Shown here: one piece after another, positions 16,985 through 22,661 of the stretch | How positions within the stretch are numbered: position 1 is the first letter of the stretch | Layout: every line of letters begins with the position of its first letter | From: Pseudomonadota bacterium | GTDB taxonomy: Bacteria > Pseudomonadota > Gammaproteobacteria > Acidiferrobacterales > Acidiferrobacteraceae | Length of the DNA: 50,384 nucleotides | Direction: 5' to 3' | Assembly: GCA_021841585.1 (NCBI GenBank) | Contig: JAKBUS010000011.1 | Coordinates: 1 to 50,384, forward strand | Notes under the pieces: model-generated | Database searches by the model: none | Seen by the model: the letters and a program-made list of their open reading frames with translations, nothing else | Told to the model about the DNA's origin: nothing | Position numbers and translations under genes: made by a program

Positions 16985-17392
16985 TCAATCGGGCTGATCG
17001 AGCAGCGCTCGAATACGCGCCGCGACCTTGGTGGCCTCGAGAAACACCATGCCGAGATTGACGGTTTGCCGCGCCGCCACCGCGAGAACACCGTCGTCAC
17101 CGGCCTGAACGAGCAGCATCGTGCCATGTTCGCCCTCAATCATGACGCGCTTTAGTCGCCCGCGATATACCTCTTGCGCGGCCCGCTCGGCGAGCGCCAA
17201 AAGCGAGGCACACATGGCGGCGTAACGGTCGGTGTCGATATGCGGATCGAGCATCGACGCGAGCATGAGTCCATCACCGGATATGACGGCCGACGCCTCG
17301 ATATCGGCGGACAAGGCATTTAGGCCCCGGAGTGCGGACCTCAGCCGGCTCGACTGATTTAAGGACGATTCCTGCACCGCTTGAGCAAACAT
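16985..17392 (-). CDS. Roadblock/LC7 domain protein (MglB/CvnB-like)
   Basis: 135 residues forming a single roadblock/LC7 fold: SADIEASAVISGDGLMLAS is the typical first strand-turn-strand, followed by the helix with YAAMCASLLALAERAAQEV and strands RVMIEGEHGTMLLVQAG and GVLAVAAR. Members act as GTPase-activating or anchoring partners of small Ras-like GTPases such as MglA or CvnD. ATG 17392 has AAGGAGA six bases upstream; a longer frame to 17434 lacks such a site. It is the last gene of the five-gene operon that encodes a GTPase two genes upstream, its likely partner. Cytoplasmic. Confidence 0.85.
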   Translation of the reverse strand: MFAQAVQESSLNQSSRLRSALRGLNALSADIEASAVISGDGLMLASMLDPHIDTDRYAAMCASLLALAERAAQEVYRGRLKRVMIEGEHGTMLLVQAGDDGVLAVAARQTVNLGMVFLEATKVAARIRALLDQPD

Positions 17393-17447
17393 GGCAGTCT
17401 CCTTAGTGATCGAATTGATGGAGGTGCGGTCCATACGTGGCAGCGTT

Positions 17448-17858
17448 TCACACGACCGACTCGATATCCGGAAGCGCCGTGCGCGCCTTCATGATCGCCA
17501 TTCCCAGGTTTGCGGAACGACGGCACACGAAGACGACTACATGATCGGTATGCGTCTTGCCCCTCAGGAAGATATGCAGGAGGTTATCGCTCGTAATGAT
17601 CATCTCCTGAAAGTAGTGATAGTTCCCGTCAGCCGGCAGTCCGCGGGCCTTTTTGAAGAGGTTTTCTATGGTCACGACGTTGGTCCCCTGAAACAGATCC
17701 GACGTGGCGGCTGAGAGCAGTTCCAAGACCTCCTGAGGATGTGAATCCACGGTGCGGATACCAAGCAGCATGCCTGTGCTCAAATCAACATAGCCCGCCG
17801 CCACGCACTCCGGGATCGACACAACGGCTCTTTGAAGGTGGCCTTCTAGATCGGACAT
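17448..17858 (-). CDS. Second roadblock-like protein
   Basis: 136 residues, compatible with a roadblock/MglB-type fold but more diverged: an N-terminal helix and strand (RAVVSIPECVAAGYVDLSTGMLLGI), a long helix (EVLELLSAATSDLFQG), and beta segments EMIITSDNLLHIFLR and DHVVVFVCRRSANLGMAIMKAR. ATG 17858 is chosen because AGGAAAGG lies upstream and the preceding in-frame sequence is the shadow of the phosphatase gene. It starts four bases after the ABC-phosphatase stop and precedes the other roadblock gene by 55 bases. The two could form a heterodimer. The family assignment is by pattern only. Confidence 0.65.
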   Translation of the reverse strand: MSDLEGHLQRAVVSIPECVAAGYVDLSTGMLLGIRTVDSHPQEVLELLSAATSDLFQGTNVVTIENLFKKARGLPADGNYHYFQEMIITSDNLLHIFLRGKTHTDHVVVFVCRRSANLGMAIMKARTALPDIESVV

Positions 17859-17862
17859 ATCG

Positions 17863-19218
17863 CTACCTTTCCTGTGGGGAATGATCGGGAATCGAATGCG
17901 AGCGGCAGGTGACCGATCGCGCGAAGTCCTCGAGGAACTGCGCCTGGGACTCCGACTGGATCCAACGCGCTTCGATGCGACGCGCGCCCTCCACGGCATC
18001 GAGGGCGCTGGCACCCTTCCATATGAGGTAAGCGGCAAGTACGGTCCCGGTTCTGCCAAGGCCGGCGTGGCAGTGCACCGCAATGACGTCGCCGCGGGCC
18101 AGGAGCTCATCGAGCGTCCGGCAGATCTCGCCGGCCTGATCCGTCGTGGGAGGCTCCCTGTCGGGTATCGGGAACCACAGTGCGCGCAGATCATGGGCAC
18201 TCAATGCCGCAGTCTCGATCGGCGTCTCGGTCAGCGACACGAGCACCGTGACACCGACGCGACGCAAGGCGCGCAGGTCGTGGTCGATGTCGAGGAATAC
18301 CCCGGGCTGAGGCATGCCGGCGAGCCGATTCTTATAGAGCCAGAGAAAGCCGCGCGGCCCGCGGGCGGTGCCGGTTGCGTCCCTGCCGGCCCTTGGTATC
18401 GTGGCCGGCAGAGGGGCCGCGAGATCCAGGTCGTCCGATGGCGTGCCCGGCGCCGGCACGGCACACGTCCCGGTTCGCACATAGGCCTGCCCGGCATCGG
18501 TGAGCGGCATGGCAAAAAAGGCATGCGTGGCACGGGCCTCCTGCACGACACCTCCGGCCAGTAACACCACTCGGTCGGCAAGGAAGCGGGCATGGCGCTG
18601 ATTATGGAGGGCCACGAGTACCGCGCGCCGCCGCGCCTCCCCCTTTAGGAAGACCAATAAGCGCAACGCATCGTCCTCATCGAGGCCAGTAGTCGGTTCG
18701 TCGACAAAAAGGACCTGGGGGTCGCCGTTGAGTACCCGCGACACCGCCAGCATCCGCTGCAAGACAAGCGGCAGCCCGGCGGCTGGTTCCTGCAAGCGGC
18801 TTGTGAGTTCCGCGAGCCCCGAGCGCTGAAGGCGTTCCCGGGCCCACGCACACTGCTGTTGGCGGGTCATTTGCGCGCGCGATGCCAGGCCATGCACGAG
18901 ATTGTCGAGCACGCTCGCCGTGATCATGCGCGCGCTCTGGGATACCAGGGCAGGCCTAGCCATGTCGCCCGTCGCAACGCCCGCGAGGCGCGCCTCACCC
19001 CAGACGCGCAGGGATGGGTTGGCATCGTTGAATCCCGCGAGCGTCCTGAGGAGCGTCGACTTGCCGGTCCCGGCGGGACCCAAAAGCGCGGTCGCGCCCG
19101 TTTTCGCCAATGCCATATCCACGAAACTCAAGACCACGCGCCCTCCAAACGCGACCCCGTAGCCACGTAAATCGAGGGCATGGTCATGTAAGTCGCGATG
19201 GCCGGACGCCGCGGTCAT
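17863..19218 (-). CDS. PstB-like ABC ATPase fused to a dual-specificity phosphatase
   Basis: 451 residues with two catalytic modules. Residues 14-250 are an ABC ATPase most like PstB: Walker A GPAGTGKS 47-54, a GFNDANPSLRVWGE segment, Q-loop Q94, Walker B VLFVDE 169-174, D-loop TGLDED, H-loop H205, and a PstB-like end FFAMPLTDAGQAYVRTG. The signature LSGGQ is degenerate (GLPLVLQR 148-155). After a linker, residues 290-437 are a dual-specificity/tyrosine phosphatase: general acid D353 in IPDREPP and the P-loop HCHAGLGRT with C383 and R389. The ATG overlaps the GTPase stop (ATGA). No transporter permease is nearby, so a signalling role is likelier than transport. Confidence 0.85.
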   Translation of the reverse strand: MTAASGHRDLHDHALDLRGYGVAFGGRVVLSFVDMALAKTGATALLGPAGTGKSTLLRTLAGFNDANPSLRVWGEARLAGVATGDMARPALVSQSARMITASVLDNLVHGLASRAQMTRQQQCAWARERLQRSGLAELTSRLQEPAAGLPLVLQRMLAVSRVLNGDPQVLFVDEPTTGLDEDDALRLLVFLKGEARRRAVLVALHNQRHARFLADRVVLLAGGVVQEARATHAFFAMPLTDAGQAYVRTGTCAVPAPGTPSDDLDLAAPLPATIPRAGRDATGTARGPRGFLWLYKNRLAGMPQPGVFLDIDHDLRALRRVGVTVLVSLTETPIETAALSAHDLRALWFPIPDREPPTTDQAGEICRTLDELLARGDVIAVHCHAGLGRTGTVLAAYLIWKGASALDAVEGARRIEARWIQSESQAQFLEDFARSVTCRSHSIPDHSPQER

Positions 19219-19757
19219 CGGCGCAGACTCGGATCGAGCATCGCGAGCAGGACCTTAAGGAGCGTGGCAATATCCTCGCGTGATCGCGCATCCGCCGTAA
19301 GAATCGGCATACGAAAGCCGTGCGCCGAGGCCCACATCTGATAGGCGGTGATGGAAGGCTTAGGCTGGATGTCTGTGCGCGTGACACCGACGGCCACCGC
19401 CGTCCCGGTAATCGCGTTATTGAAGGCATCCAGATAAAAACCCAGGTCCGCAAACGGATCGGGGCGCGCATTATCCATGAGCAGGACGACACCCAGGCTT
19501 CCCGTCGCGAGAATGTCCCACATGAAGCGAAACCGCTCCTGGCCGGGGGTCCCGTAGAGGTGCAGTTTGCGCCCCCCATCCAGCATGATGAGACCGTAGT
19601 CCATGGCAACCGTGGTGCGGCTCTTGCGCATCGCCACGGCATCGCTGGCGCGCGCCTCGGTAGCCACCACCGGTATGTCGCTGATGGCGCCTATGGCGGT
19701 GGTCTTCCCGGCACCGACCGGACCGGCAAACATGATCTTGTGTTCGACGTCCGCCAT
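19215..19757 (-). CDS. Small Ras-like GTPase (MglA/CvnD-like)
   Basis: 180-residue P-loop GTPase. G1 is GPVGAGKT at 12-19, G2 probably T48/T49, G3 GTPGQERF at 69-76 with the switch II glutamine. G4 reads TRTD (126-129), keeping only the aspartate of the NKxD guanine motif. The family includes CvnD of Streptomyces conservons and MglA polarity switches, whose partners are roadblock proteins like those encoded downstream. ATG 19757 follows immediately after the stop of the upstream gene. The gene overlaps the ABC-phosphatase gene by four bases, so tight stoichiometric coupling is likely. Confidence 0.85.
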   Translation of the reverse strand: MADVEHKIMFAGPVGAGKTTAIGAISDIPVVATEARASDAVAMRKSRTTVAMDYGLIMLDGGRKLHLYGTPGQERFRFMWDILATGSLGVVLLMDNARPDPFADLGFYLDAFNNAITGTAVAVGVTRTDIQPKPSITAYQMWASAHGFRMPILTADARSREDIATLLKVLLAMLDPSLRR

Positions 19758-20387
19758 CTAGCGCCCCGCCAGCCGCTGTAGGATCAGGCTGAAAACATTG
19801 CGCTTGGCATGGGGACGCAACACCGGTGCCTCTGGTTCACGATTCAGAAGGCGCGTGAGACCCGCGCAGTGCGCCGCCGAATACAGCCGATAGATATCCG
19901 GCGCCGCGATGTCGAGCACGTGGCTTGCAAGAATAATGGAGGTGGGATGCCGGCTTAGGAGTGCCGCCAATCGGATAGCTTGGTCGGCCGCGGGCAGGCG
20001 CGTGACGTTCGGCCAGCGCACGAACTCCACGACATCGTAATGGTAACAGTCTTTGACGAGCCGACCTTGCGACGCATGGTAGGCGGCCTGCCATAAGAGC
20101 TCGGCGACATCGTGGCGACCCCCATCCCCGTCGTCGGCGGACACCACCTTGACACGGAAATACGAGGCCGGGAGCGTGCAAAACGTCGCCATATCGTCAA
20201 TGTCGGCGGCAAAGGTCCCTTCGCCCCCGAACACCTTGAGCGTACCACCATCGTCGAGCGCGACCTCGACCGTCTGCCGGTTGGCGACGGCGCGTTGAAT
20301 ATGATGCAACACATGGTCCTCGGGATTGAAATGCGGCGTCTCGCGACGCACGCCGATATCCATGTCGGTCCTCTGTACCGGATTCAT
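19758..20387 (-). CDS. Unrecognised first protein of the GTPase operon
   Basis: Up to 209 residues; I do not recognise the family. The N-terminal half is acidic with beta-rich stretches (TVEVALDDGGTLKVFGG, SYFRVKVVSADDGD). The C-terminal half is helical with WPNVTRLPAADQAIRLAALL and ends in a basic tail HAKRNVFSLILQRLAGR. This could be an effector or a DNA- or protein-binding module. Two starts are possible: ATG 20387, and ATG 20363, which has the better placed AGAGGA. No signal peptide or membrane segment. The stop abuts the GTPase start, so it belongs to the operon. A sigma-54 type promoter lies 80 bases upstream. Confidence 0.75.
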   Translation of the reverse strand: MNPVQRTDMDIGVRRETPHFNPEDHVLHHIQRAVANRQTVEVALDDGGTLKVFGGEGTFAADIDDMATFCTLPASYFRVKVVSADDGDGGRHDVAELLWQAAYHASQGRLVKDCYHYDVVEFVRWPNVTRLPAADQAIRLAALLSRHPTSIILASHVLDIAAPDIYRLYSAAHCAGLTRLLNREPEAPVLRPHAKRNVFSLILQRLAGR

Positions 20388-20969: not shown

Positions 20970-22571
20970 CTATCGGCGGGTCGCGCGCCCGTCGCACCGG
21001 TAGGGCGCCGCCGGCAATGCGTAGCGCTTCAACTTCTGATGGATCGCCCGGCGCGTAATCCCCATCTCACGCGCCATGGCGGTCACATTGCCATGATGAC
21101 GCTCAAGCGCATCTTGGAGCATGCGGGTCTCGATGGTGCGCGTGGCCCTGCCTCGGACGGCATGCAACAGCCCGCCGGTAGCCGGCCCCGCGCGCGGCGC
21201 GTCGAGGGCTGTGCGGTCGCGCAATTCGACATCGTCGATGACGCGGCCGGGCGTGAACAAAAACGCGCGCTCCAGGACATTTTCCAGCTCGCGGACATTG
21301 CCGGGCCAGGCATGGCCCATCACCTGTCCCCAGGCGCGATCGCTCAGGGACTTGAGCGGGCCGTCGTGGCGCCGCGCCAAAGCCGCGAGCAAATAATGGA
21401 CCAGACCGGCCACATCCTCTGGGCGCTCCCGCAGGGGCGGGATATAGACCGGCACCACGTTCAGCCGGTAGTAGAGGTCGCTGCGGAATTGGCCGGCGTC
21501 AACCAATGATTCGATCGACTTATTGGCGGCCGCCACCACCCGCACATCGACATGGTGCGTTTGGCCGCCGCCAACCCGCTCATACTCGCCCTCCTGCAAG
21601 ACGCGCAGCAACTTGGCCTGCGAAAAGAGCGGGAGACTATCGATCTCATCTAGAAACAGCGTGCCTTGATCGGCGCGCTCGAAAAGACCACGGTGCAGGC
21701 TATGGGCGCCCGTGAATGCGCCCTTTTCGTGGCCGAAGAGCGTCGTTTCTATGAGGTTGTGCGGCACGGCGCCGCAGTTGACGGCCAGAAACGGCCGGGG
21801 ACTGCGCGGGCTCAGCGTATGGACGGCGCGTGCTATGACCTCTTTGCCGACCCCGGTCTCCCCACTGATGAGGACGCTCGCGCGCGTCGGCGCAACCTGC
21901 TCCACGGCCCGCAGGATCTCGCGCATGGCGCGCGATTCGGCCACGATTGACGGGCGCGTATGCGCGTCTTGCTTGCGCCCGGCCGGACACAGGGCATGGG
22001 CCATCTTTTCGGCAACACGCGTACGGACGTCCGCCAAGGCTTGTCGGGAGACGATCGTCTCGCCCTCGCTTACATACTCATCGCCCATCTGCCCCTCGGC
22101 GATTTCGCGATCCGTGTAGATACACACCTCGCATCGATCATCGCGTAAGGCGATACGCCTTTTTAGCTCGACCTTTGCATAGCCGAAGTTGCGCGCGGCA
22201 ATGCCACCGAAGACCGACGCCGTGGTGCGACACAGCTCCGGGGCATCTTGCACGCGCGCGCCGAATGGGCAGCGCCGATTTTCAACATAAACGACACCAG
22301 GCCCGGCGACCACGGACCGGAACTCCCCGCCGATGGCGTTCTTGATATAGACGATGAGATCGGCATATTGTTCTCGATTCATGCGCTCCGGAAGCTGCAT
22401 CTGATTCCTGGCGTAGAGCTCAAGGCAACTACTGGCCGTAAGCCCCAGATATTCGATGGCCTCGGCACGTACGGCCCCCGACGCCGACCCGGAGAGTTTT
22501 ATGCTTTGCGTCACAAACATCTGCAGGAATGAAAGCGGACTCAAGTCCGCGAGCGGGTCCTTGGTGGGCAT
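20970..22571 (-). CDS. Sigma-54 dependent transcriptional activator with cysteine-bearing sensor domain
   Basis: 533-residue bacterial enhancer-binding protein. Residues about 35-155 form a sensor domain resembling methanogen-output/V4R-like ligand domains, with cysteines C101 (CPFG), C114, C147 and C150 (CEVC), a plausible metal or Fe-S site. The AAA+ core has Walker A GETGVGKE 237-244, the sigma-54 contact loop GAFTGA 284-289, Walker B LFLDEI 305-310 and the R-finger region FRSDLYYRLNV. A Fis-type HTH ends the protein (GNVTAMAREMGITRRAIHQKLKRY). ATG 22571 (MPTKDPLADL) is preferred to 22643, whose extension looks non-coding; GAGGA lies upstream. There is no receiver domain, so it senses a signal directly. 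The downstream GTPase operon is its probable target. Confidence 0.88.
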   Translation of the reverse strand: MPTKDPLADLSPLSFLQMFVTQSIKLSGSASGAVRAEAIEYLGLTASSCLELYARNQMQLPERMNREQYADLIVYIKNAIGGEFRSVVAGPGVVYVENRRCPFGARVQDAPELCRTTASVFGGIAARNFGYAKVELKRRIALRDDRCEVCIYTDREIAEGQMGDEYVSEGETIVSRQALADVRTRVAEKMAHALCPAGRKQDAHTRPSIVAESRAMREILRAVEQVAPTRASVLISGETGVGKEVIARAVHTLSPRSPRPFLAVNCGAVPHNLIETTLFGHEKGAFTGAHSLHRGLFERADQGTLFLDEIDSLPLFSQAKLLRVLQEGEYERVGGGQTHHVDVRVVAAANKSIESLVDAGQFRSDLYYRLNVVPVYIPPLRERPEDVAGLVHYLLAALARRHDGPLKSLSDRAWGQVMGHAWPGNVRELENVLERAFLFTPGRVIDDVELRDRTALDAPRAGPATGGLLHAVRGRATRTIETRMLQDALERHHGNVTAMAREMGITRRAIHQKLKRYALPAAPYRCDGRATRR

Positions 22572-22661
22572 GGCAGGGGTCCTCGGCGGGCCCGTCCCCA
22601 GCGCGCCGGGGACGGGGCGATGCGTGCAGTATAAGGCGGCCAAACCGGGGCGGAAAGCAGA

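Follow-up and report, generated by a model that had tools for sequence, protein, structure and literature searches.

What does an ABC ATPase do when it is built into one polypeptide with a phosphatase? The question is raised by a gene in the window, the 50,384-nucleotide stretch of DNA analysed here. The first-pass annotation had placed an uninterrupted 451-codon frame at 17863-19218 and read it as an ABC ATPase fused to a phosphatase in one chain. The span is exact and the frame is a single unbroken one, but it lies on the minus strand, which that annotation had left unstated, with its start ATG at 19218 and its stop at 17865-17863; read on the plus strand, the same span runs into stops. A Pfam architecture search, which the annotation had proposed as a check, placed both ABC_tran (residues 33-177, E 8e-11) and DSPc (residues 316-402, E 1e-8) above cut-off. 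Two further phosphatase models, Tc-R-P (residues 300-403, E 7e-23) and PTP-SAK (residues 288-414, E 7e-19), were above cut-off as well. We refer to the protein as ABC-DSP; it and its parts are listed below.

17863..19218, minus strand: ABC-DSP fusion protein, 451 aa (frame, Pfam and homologues)
18469..19176, minus strand: ABC ATPase domain, residues about 15-250 (Pfam ABC_tran, NCBIfam ABC matches, alignment to solved ABC ATPases)
18361..18468, minus strand: linker joining the two domains, about residue 251 to 286 (length varies among members; dN/dS 0.50)
17899..18360, minus strand: DUSP23-type DSP/PTP phosphatase domain, about residue 287 to 440 (Pfam, match to solved structures)
18160..18162, minus strand: D353, predicted general acid, invariant in 16/16 members
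18046..18075, minus strand: HCHAGLGRTG, the phosphatase P-loop (residues 382-391) that contains C383 and R389; HC-x-AG-x-GRTG in 16/16 members

The ABC part of a predicted model of the fusion had a pLDDT below 50 and was unusable. Promoters and terminators were predicted in numbers near those obtained for shuffled sequence.

The phosphatase domain retains its predicted catalytic residues. D353, C383 and R389, all named in the first-pass annotation, are present, and the check set there, conservation of C383 and D353 in homologues, found both invariant (16/16). H382, G386, G388, R389 and T390 likewise never vary among the unbroken copies, and the HCx5R-type P-loop and general-acid aspartate by which the DSP/PTP superfamily is recognised are present in every one. 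Compared with DUSP23-type phosphatases (2img, 4erc) and with 25xa, the domain is alike over nearly its whole length, P-loop and general acid included, but those chains have 150-162 residues, whereas in ABC-DSP an ABC ATPase is attached to it. We did not take the label of the Tc-R-P model, "polymorphic toxin system," as a function, since it names a phosphatase subfamily and the cassette has no sign of a toxin system.

The fusion is found well beyond this genome. Homologues spanning both domains, with 38-84% identity, occurred in genomes of 11 family codes and in a Gallionella MAG (51% identity), and the fusion is therefore not a chance event. Genomes with an ABC-DSP match numbered 8/60 among relatives (a figure that includes the window's genome and G008, whose copy is broken), at least 7/370 in the class and at least 4/397 in the phylum (the window's genome counted in each), and at least 4/300 in the order of G583 (G583, the centre of that search, counted). 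The samples overlap, and the class, phylum and order counts may be low because at most four or five candidates were scored per genome. We compared 17 loci, 16 with an unbroken copy (one of them, L029, at a contig end with the N-terminal part missing) and one with a broken copy, L034, which was left out of the ABC-DSP alignment (16/17). A further alignment, A2, held 13/17 (without L030, L034, L105 and L106). Every one of the 13 members scanned matched ABC_tran, Tc-R-P and PTP-SAK, and 11 matched DSPc (E up to 1e-5). Ratios of dN/dS between the window and G004 (ABC domain 0.18, phosphatase domain 0.16, 35-residue linker 0.50) indicate purifying selection on both domains, with the linker much less constrained. 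Relative to the window, the broken copy (L034 6998-8350, in G008) lacks two bases at one site and one base at another, and it has glycine in place of the Walker B aspartate. No plasmid-borne homologue was found at E 1e-20, and a literature search, with most subscription papers outside its reach, returned no description of the ABC-DSP fusion.

The strongest clues to function are the operon setting and a constant partner with a predicted roadblock fold, both missed by the first-pass annotation. Four genes accompany ABC-DSP in the window.

19758..20387, minus strand: HYP209, 209 aa, no Pfam match; putative counterpart of the Group 3 conserved protein, from position and conservation
19215..19757, minus strand: Ras-like (MglA-family) GTPase, 180 aa (Pfam ATP_bind_1 and Ras); in 13/16 loci that extend this far
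17448..17861, minus strand: X137, predicted roadblock/LC7 fold, 137 aa; next gene after ABC-DSP in 17/17 loci, dN/dS 0.039
16985..17434, minus strand: second roadblock/LC7 protein, 149-aa frame (Pfam Robl_LC7, E 2e-17); in 13/17 loci

The order is HYP209, GTPase, ABC-DSP, X137 and roadblock protein, all on the minus strand. The GTPase and ABC-DSP genes overlap by 4 bases and the other gaps are 0, 1 and 13 bases when the X137 start is set at the ATG of 17861, although the open frame continues further upstream. The same five genes occur in identical order in 11/17 loci, one of them with the broken ABC-DSP. Among the remainder, L033 has a different gene order and a doubled X137, L035 is without the second roadblock protein and L029 is cut at the contig end. 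At L033 (3573-9286), the two X137 genes stand in tandem after ABC-DSP, and genes for a histidine kinase and an ANTAR response regulator lie upstream.

X137 follows ABC-DSP directly, on the same strand, at every locus, and no other gene of the cassette is as strongly constrained. No Pfam family matched it at E up to 1, Robl_LC7 included. Its predicted roadblock fold comes from one single-sequence model of moderate confidence, the best of five (mean pLDDT 63.6, the other four 36-38). The PDB matches of this model, among the 50 listed, were all roadblock proteins (3kye, MglB) or Rag, Ragulator and EGO chains, with a best E of 8.6e-6, and its order of helices and strands is what we take to be that of the roadblock fold. 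Matches to X137 were found in 22/341 class genomes. Those with at least 62% identity were exactly the seven genomes carrying ABC-DSP in the class samples, which differ in size (370 for ABC-DSP, 341 for X137) and may overlap only in part; the other 15 genomes held only distant X137 relatives (28-35% identity). We looked at 12 loci of distant X137 relatives (26-34% identity by BLAST): 11 of the 15 distant-only genomes were represented, and G389, a carrier, contributed its second X137 locus. A GTPase of this kind was nearby in 9/12 and an ABC-DSP match in 0/12, so the module of GTPase, roadblock protein and X137 is the wider one and ABC-DSP goes with one X137 subfamily. The X137 beside the broken ABC-DSP of G008 is 97% identical to that of the window, and X137 may therefore have a separate role in that genome.

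The gene content and motifs of the operon resemble those of a described class of MglA systems. In the main text of Wuichet and Sogaard-Andersen (PMC4316618), Group 3 MglA systems, which are almost exclusive to beta- and gamma-proteobacteria, comprise an MglA homologue, one or two homologues of MglB and a conserved protein whose N-terminus is receiver-like and whose C-terminus is a winged helix, and their GTPases have an unusual G4, often missing its lysine, and a DAR motif at G5. Like a Group 3 system as described there, the window operon contains a Ras-like GTPase, a Robl_LC7 protein and X137 (a roadblock protein by predicted fold), and its GTPase has TRTD, without the lysine, at G4 and DAR at G5. 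D-x-R is present in 13/13 aligned GTPases. HYP209, a putative counterpart of the receiver-like and winged-helix protein, is conserved at the corresponding place in the operon; Pfam matched nothing in it, and longer homologous frames of 343-384 aa occur in L033, L035 and L037. We liken the operon to the Group 3 type by these motifs and this gene content, not by tree position. It differs from Group 3 as described in that main text in having an ABC-DSP gene and a special X137 subfamily; there, "phosphatase" does not occur, and the mentions of "ABC" that were examined refer only to ATPases filtered from the GTPase search (PMC4316618). The actinobacterial conservons, in the same text, also bring together a roadblock protein, a protein of unknown function and a Ras-like GTPase, but a histidine kinase is among their core members and ABC-DSP is absent from the description. 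In Snodgrassella, according to a passage of PMC11112851, mglA is assigned to Group 3 and mutation of an orphan mglB is tied to gut colonisation, possibly via type IV pili.

The reading that we favour, with slightly better than even confidence, is that ABC-DSP acts as a signalling phosphatase of the Ras-like GTPase operon and works with X137 as its dedicated roadblock-fold partner. The substrate would most likely be a Ser/Thr/Tyr phosphoprotein. Proteins matching Pkinase (PF00069) were found in all 14 of the carrier genomes searched, which allows for phosphoprotein substrates, but 8/14 control genomes were over the cut-off too, so this lends the reading little weight.

Rather unlikely, in our judgement, is that ABC-DSP and X137 work by themselves as a two-protein enzyme for which the GTPase operon is just a frequent neighbourhood. 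Such an enzyme would fit the presence of X137 at 17/17 loci, and also L038, L039 and L054, which hold ABC-DSP and X137 only and, having no adjoining GTPase, count against the favoured reading; the genomes of these loci have GTPase matches elsewhere, at 48% (G583), 40% (G210) and only 33% identity (G263). However, both the GTPase and HYP209 stand alongside the pair in 13/16 judgeable loci, 12 of these with the second roadblock protein, and the distant X137 relatives, which lack ABC-DSP, are found near the GTPase in most loci as well. L038 and L054 are loci of one genus, and in both a putative two-component pair, recognised by shared clusters and read by eye, follows ABC-DSP and X137 (L038 4177-6284, L054 4208-6330).

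The ABC domain bears on how such a phosphatase could be controlled. Its motifs are as follows.

19054..19080, minus strand: Walker A GPAGTGKST (residues 47-55), with K53 and S54 unchanged in all 15 members covering the site
18937..18939, minus strand: Q-loop Q94, invariant in 16/16
18754..18774, minus strand: residues 149-155 (LPLVLQR), where the ABC signature has been lost; LSGGQ absent in 16/16, register against the PstB chain 9k3x_C
18697..18711, minus strand: Walker B LFVDE, residues 170-174, with D173 and E174, invariant in 16/16 unbroken members
18604..18606, minus strand: H-loop H205, invariant in 16/16

Walker A, Walker B and the H-loop are thus where the first-pass annotation had seen them, and K53, S54, Q94, D173, E174 and H205 show no variation among unbroken copies wherever the site is covered. 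Its degenerate ABC signature is real and a trait of the family, with LSGGQ in none of the 16 unbroken copies aligned and the first of its two glycines substituted in all of them, in the register given by 9k3x_C. Its D-loop was too strong a claim: the window has the motif TGLD, but the aspartate is kept in just 5/16 members. In an ordinary ABC ATPase, ATP bound by one subunit is met by the signature of its partner. The residues for ATP within the subunit are kept and LSGGQ is lost, and therefore the within-subunit site appears to be retained and the cross-dimer contribution lost. ABC-DSP has Walker A, Q-loop, Walker B and H-loop in common with PstB and other ABC importer ATPases, and differs from them in lacking LSGGQ, in its degenerate D-loop, in its C-terminal phosphatase and in forming a long-stemmed clade of its own. 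At the level of sequence, then, the family combines a fusion, an intact phosphatase site, an intact within-subunit ATP site, loss of LSGGQ, pairing with X137 and a Group 3-type setting. A role in anti-phage defence was considered and rejected; PADLOC matched ABC-DSP four times, in each case along only a portion of the ATPase region, and did not match the GTPase, X137 or HYP209 at all.

The invariant catalytic residues E174 and H205 (16/16) raise the alternative of a hydrolysing ABC ATPase for which a heterodimer partner or X137 supplies what is missing and which remodels the target of the phosphatase, as pure binding would presumably need neither residue. We consider this improbable, since no second ABC protein recurs at the loci, among the matches listed, and no residue replacing LSGGQ was identified.

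The first-pass annotation had also proposed that the ABC domain descends from PstB, the ATPase of the phosphate transporter. The resemblance holds, as no NCBIfam model fits the window protein better than that of PstB, which matches 13/13 members scanned with the top E-value in the NCBIfam list, where phosphate-importer models lead. Descent does not follow from it: the window protein scores 104.5 bits, below the cut-off of 343.2, and the genomes that carry the fusion have many further ABC ATPases with higher scores on this model than the fused ones. In a tree of 15/17 fused members (without L029 and L034) and 28 ABC domains of other proteins, drawn from five carriers (28/30 loci, L121 and L136 being dropped as too short), the fused domains formed one clade with 100/100 support and a long stem, which indicates a single origin of the fused ABC domain within this sample. 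PstB rows formed their own clade without fused rows, and the two clades made up one side of a branch with 56/26 support only. With model scores this unspecific and the grouping at that support, we did not adopt descent from PstB. That ABC-DSP is part of a transporter, its ABC domain energising a permease encoded elsewhere and its phosphatase domain regulating it, is very improbable: ABC_tran is above cut-off and phosphate-importer models top the list, but LSGGQ is lost in 16/16 members and the D-loop aspartate in 11/16, a separate PstB above the model cut-off is present in each of the five carrier genomes tested, and the neighbours recurring across loci, among the matches listed, are GTPase, roadblock, HYP209, regulator and globin genes and, in line with the first-pass annotation, not permeases (neighbours seen at one locus are mostly unannotated).

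If ABC-DSP is the signalling phosphatase of the GTPase operon, the following mechanism could be proposed. The ABC domain would bind ATP, and the usual head-to-tail closure of a homodimer would not be possible; because of this, the domain would serve as a nucleotide-dependent conformational element and not as the motor of a pump. X137 would dock on the ABC domain and relay the state of the GTPase and roadblock module, so that the phosphatase domain would dephosphorylate a partner in one nucleotide state only. Nucleotide control of the ABC-DSP phosphatase, an idea of the first-pass annotation, is plausible, and ATP binding and X137 are likely controls of the predicted activity. It would mean that an ABC ATPase domain has been reused as a regulator of a phosphatase and that a roadblock-fold protein partners an ABC-type NTPase. 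A more specific version, in which the roadblock fold of X137 controls both the Ras-like GTPase and the signature-less ABC ATPase and thereby gates a protein phosphatase, we offer only tentatively, as possible but doubtful; if true, the operon would join GTP and ATP switches to the dephosphorylation of a target, with an oxygen- or NO-binding globin as input in some lineages. Most prokaryotic MglA-type GTPases are described in the main text of PMC4316618 as uncharacterised, and the link of Group 3 to transcription as predicted only. One version of a Group 3-type operon carries an enzyme whose predicted activity can be read, so the output of its GTPase module may be testable by a simple phosphatase assay.

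The globin is part of a ferredoxin/reductase/globin fusion that, in 6/17 loci (as a globin alone in one), is encoded on the strand of the ABC-DSP cassette and downstream of it. These six loci represent five family codes and the Gallionella MAG.

L009 8425-9990, same strand as the cassette: ferredoxin/reductase/globin fusion
L030 3851-5701, same strand as the cassette: ferredoxin/reductase/globin fusion
L031 3645-5300, same strand as the cassette: ferredoxin/reductase/globin fusion
L035 4326-5918, same strand as the cassette: ferredoxin/reductase/globin fusion
L105 8707-10356, same strand as the cassette: ferredoxin/reductase/globin fusion
L037 5888-6526, same strand as the cassette: globin alone

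At least 59/341 class genomes match the ferredoxin/reductase/globin fusion at E 1e-40, a search in which at most four candidates were scored per genome and weaker globins are missed. Among the matches scored, the globin part was covered in G028, G240 and G169, all three of which carry ABC-DSP; the match in G090 reaches residue 368 only and is interrupted by stops. Eight other carriers were searched (G008 with its broken copy included), and the globin part was found elsewhere in the genome in G024 and G839, while the window's genome and the remaining carriers of the eight matched in the reductase part only. With the globin at 6/17 loci and the window without it, we interpret the globin as an optional partner.

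Additional genes were noted around the operon and elsewhere in the window's genome. A regulator of the sigma-54 type lies upstream of the operon, at 20970-22643 of the window; it matches MetOD1, and G004 and G008 have it too. A second GTPase of the same kind, 52% identical, occurs with a roadblock protein on another contig of the window's genome (L055 5507-6951, G000 contig C9), with no ABC-DSP match within 12.5 kb. Downstream of the window operon and on the opposite strand are genes that, read by eye, we take to be pilB and pilD, and the same arrangement is seen in L028, L029 and L034, the loci of three relatives of the same genus as the window.
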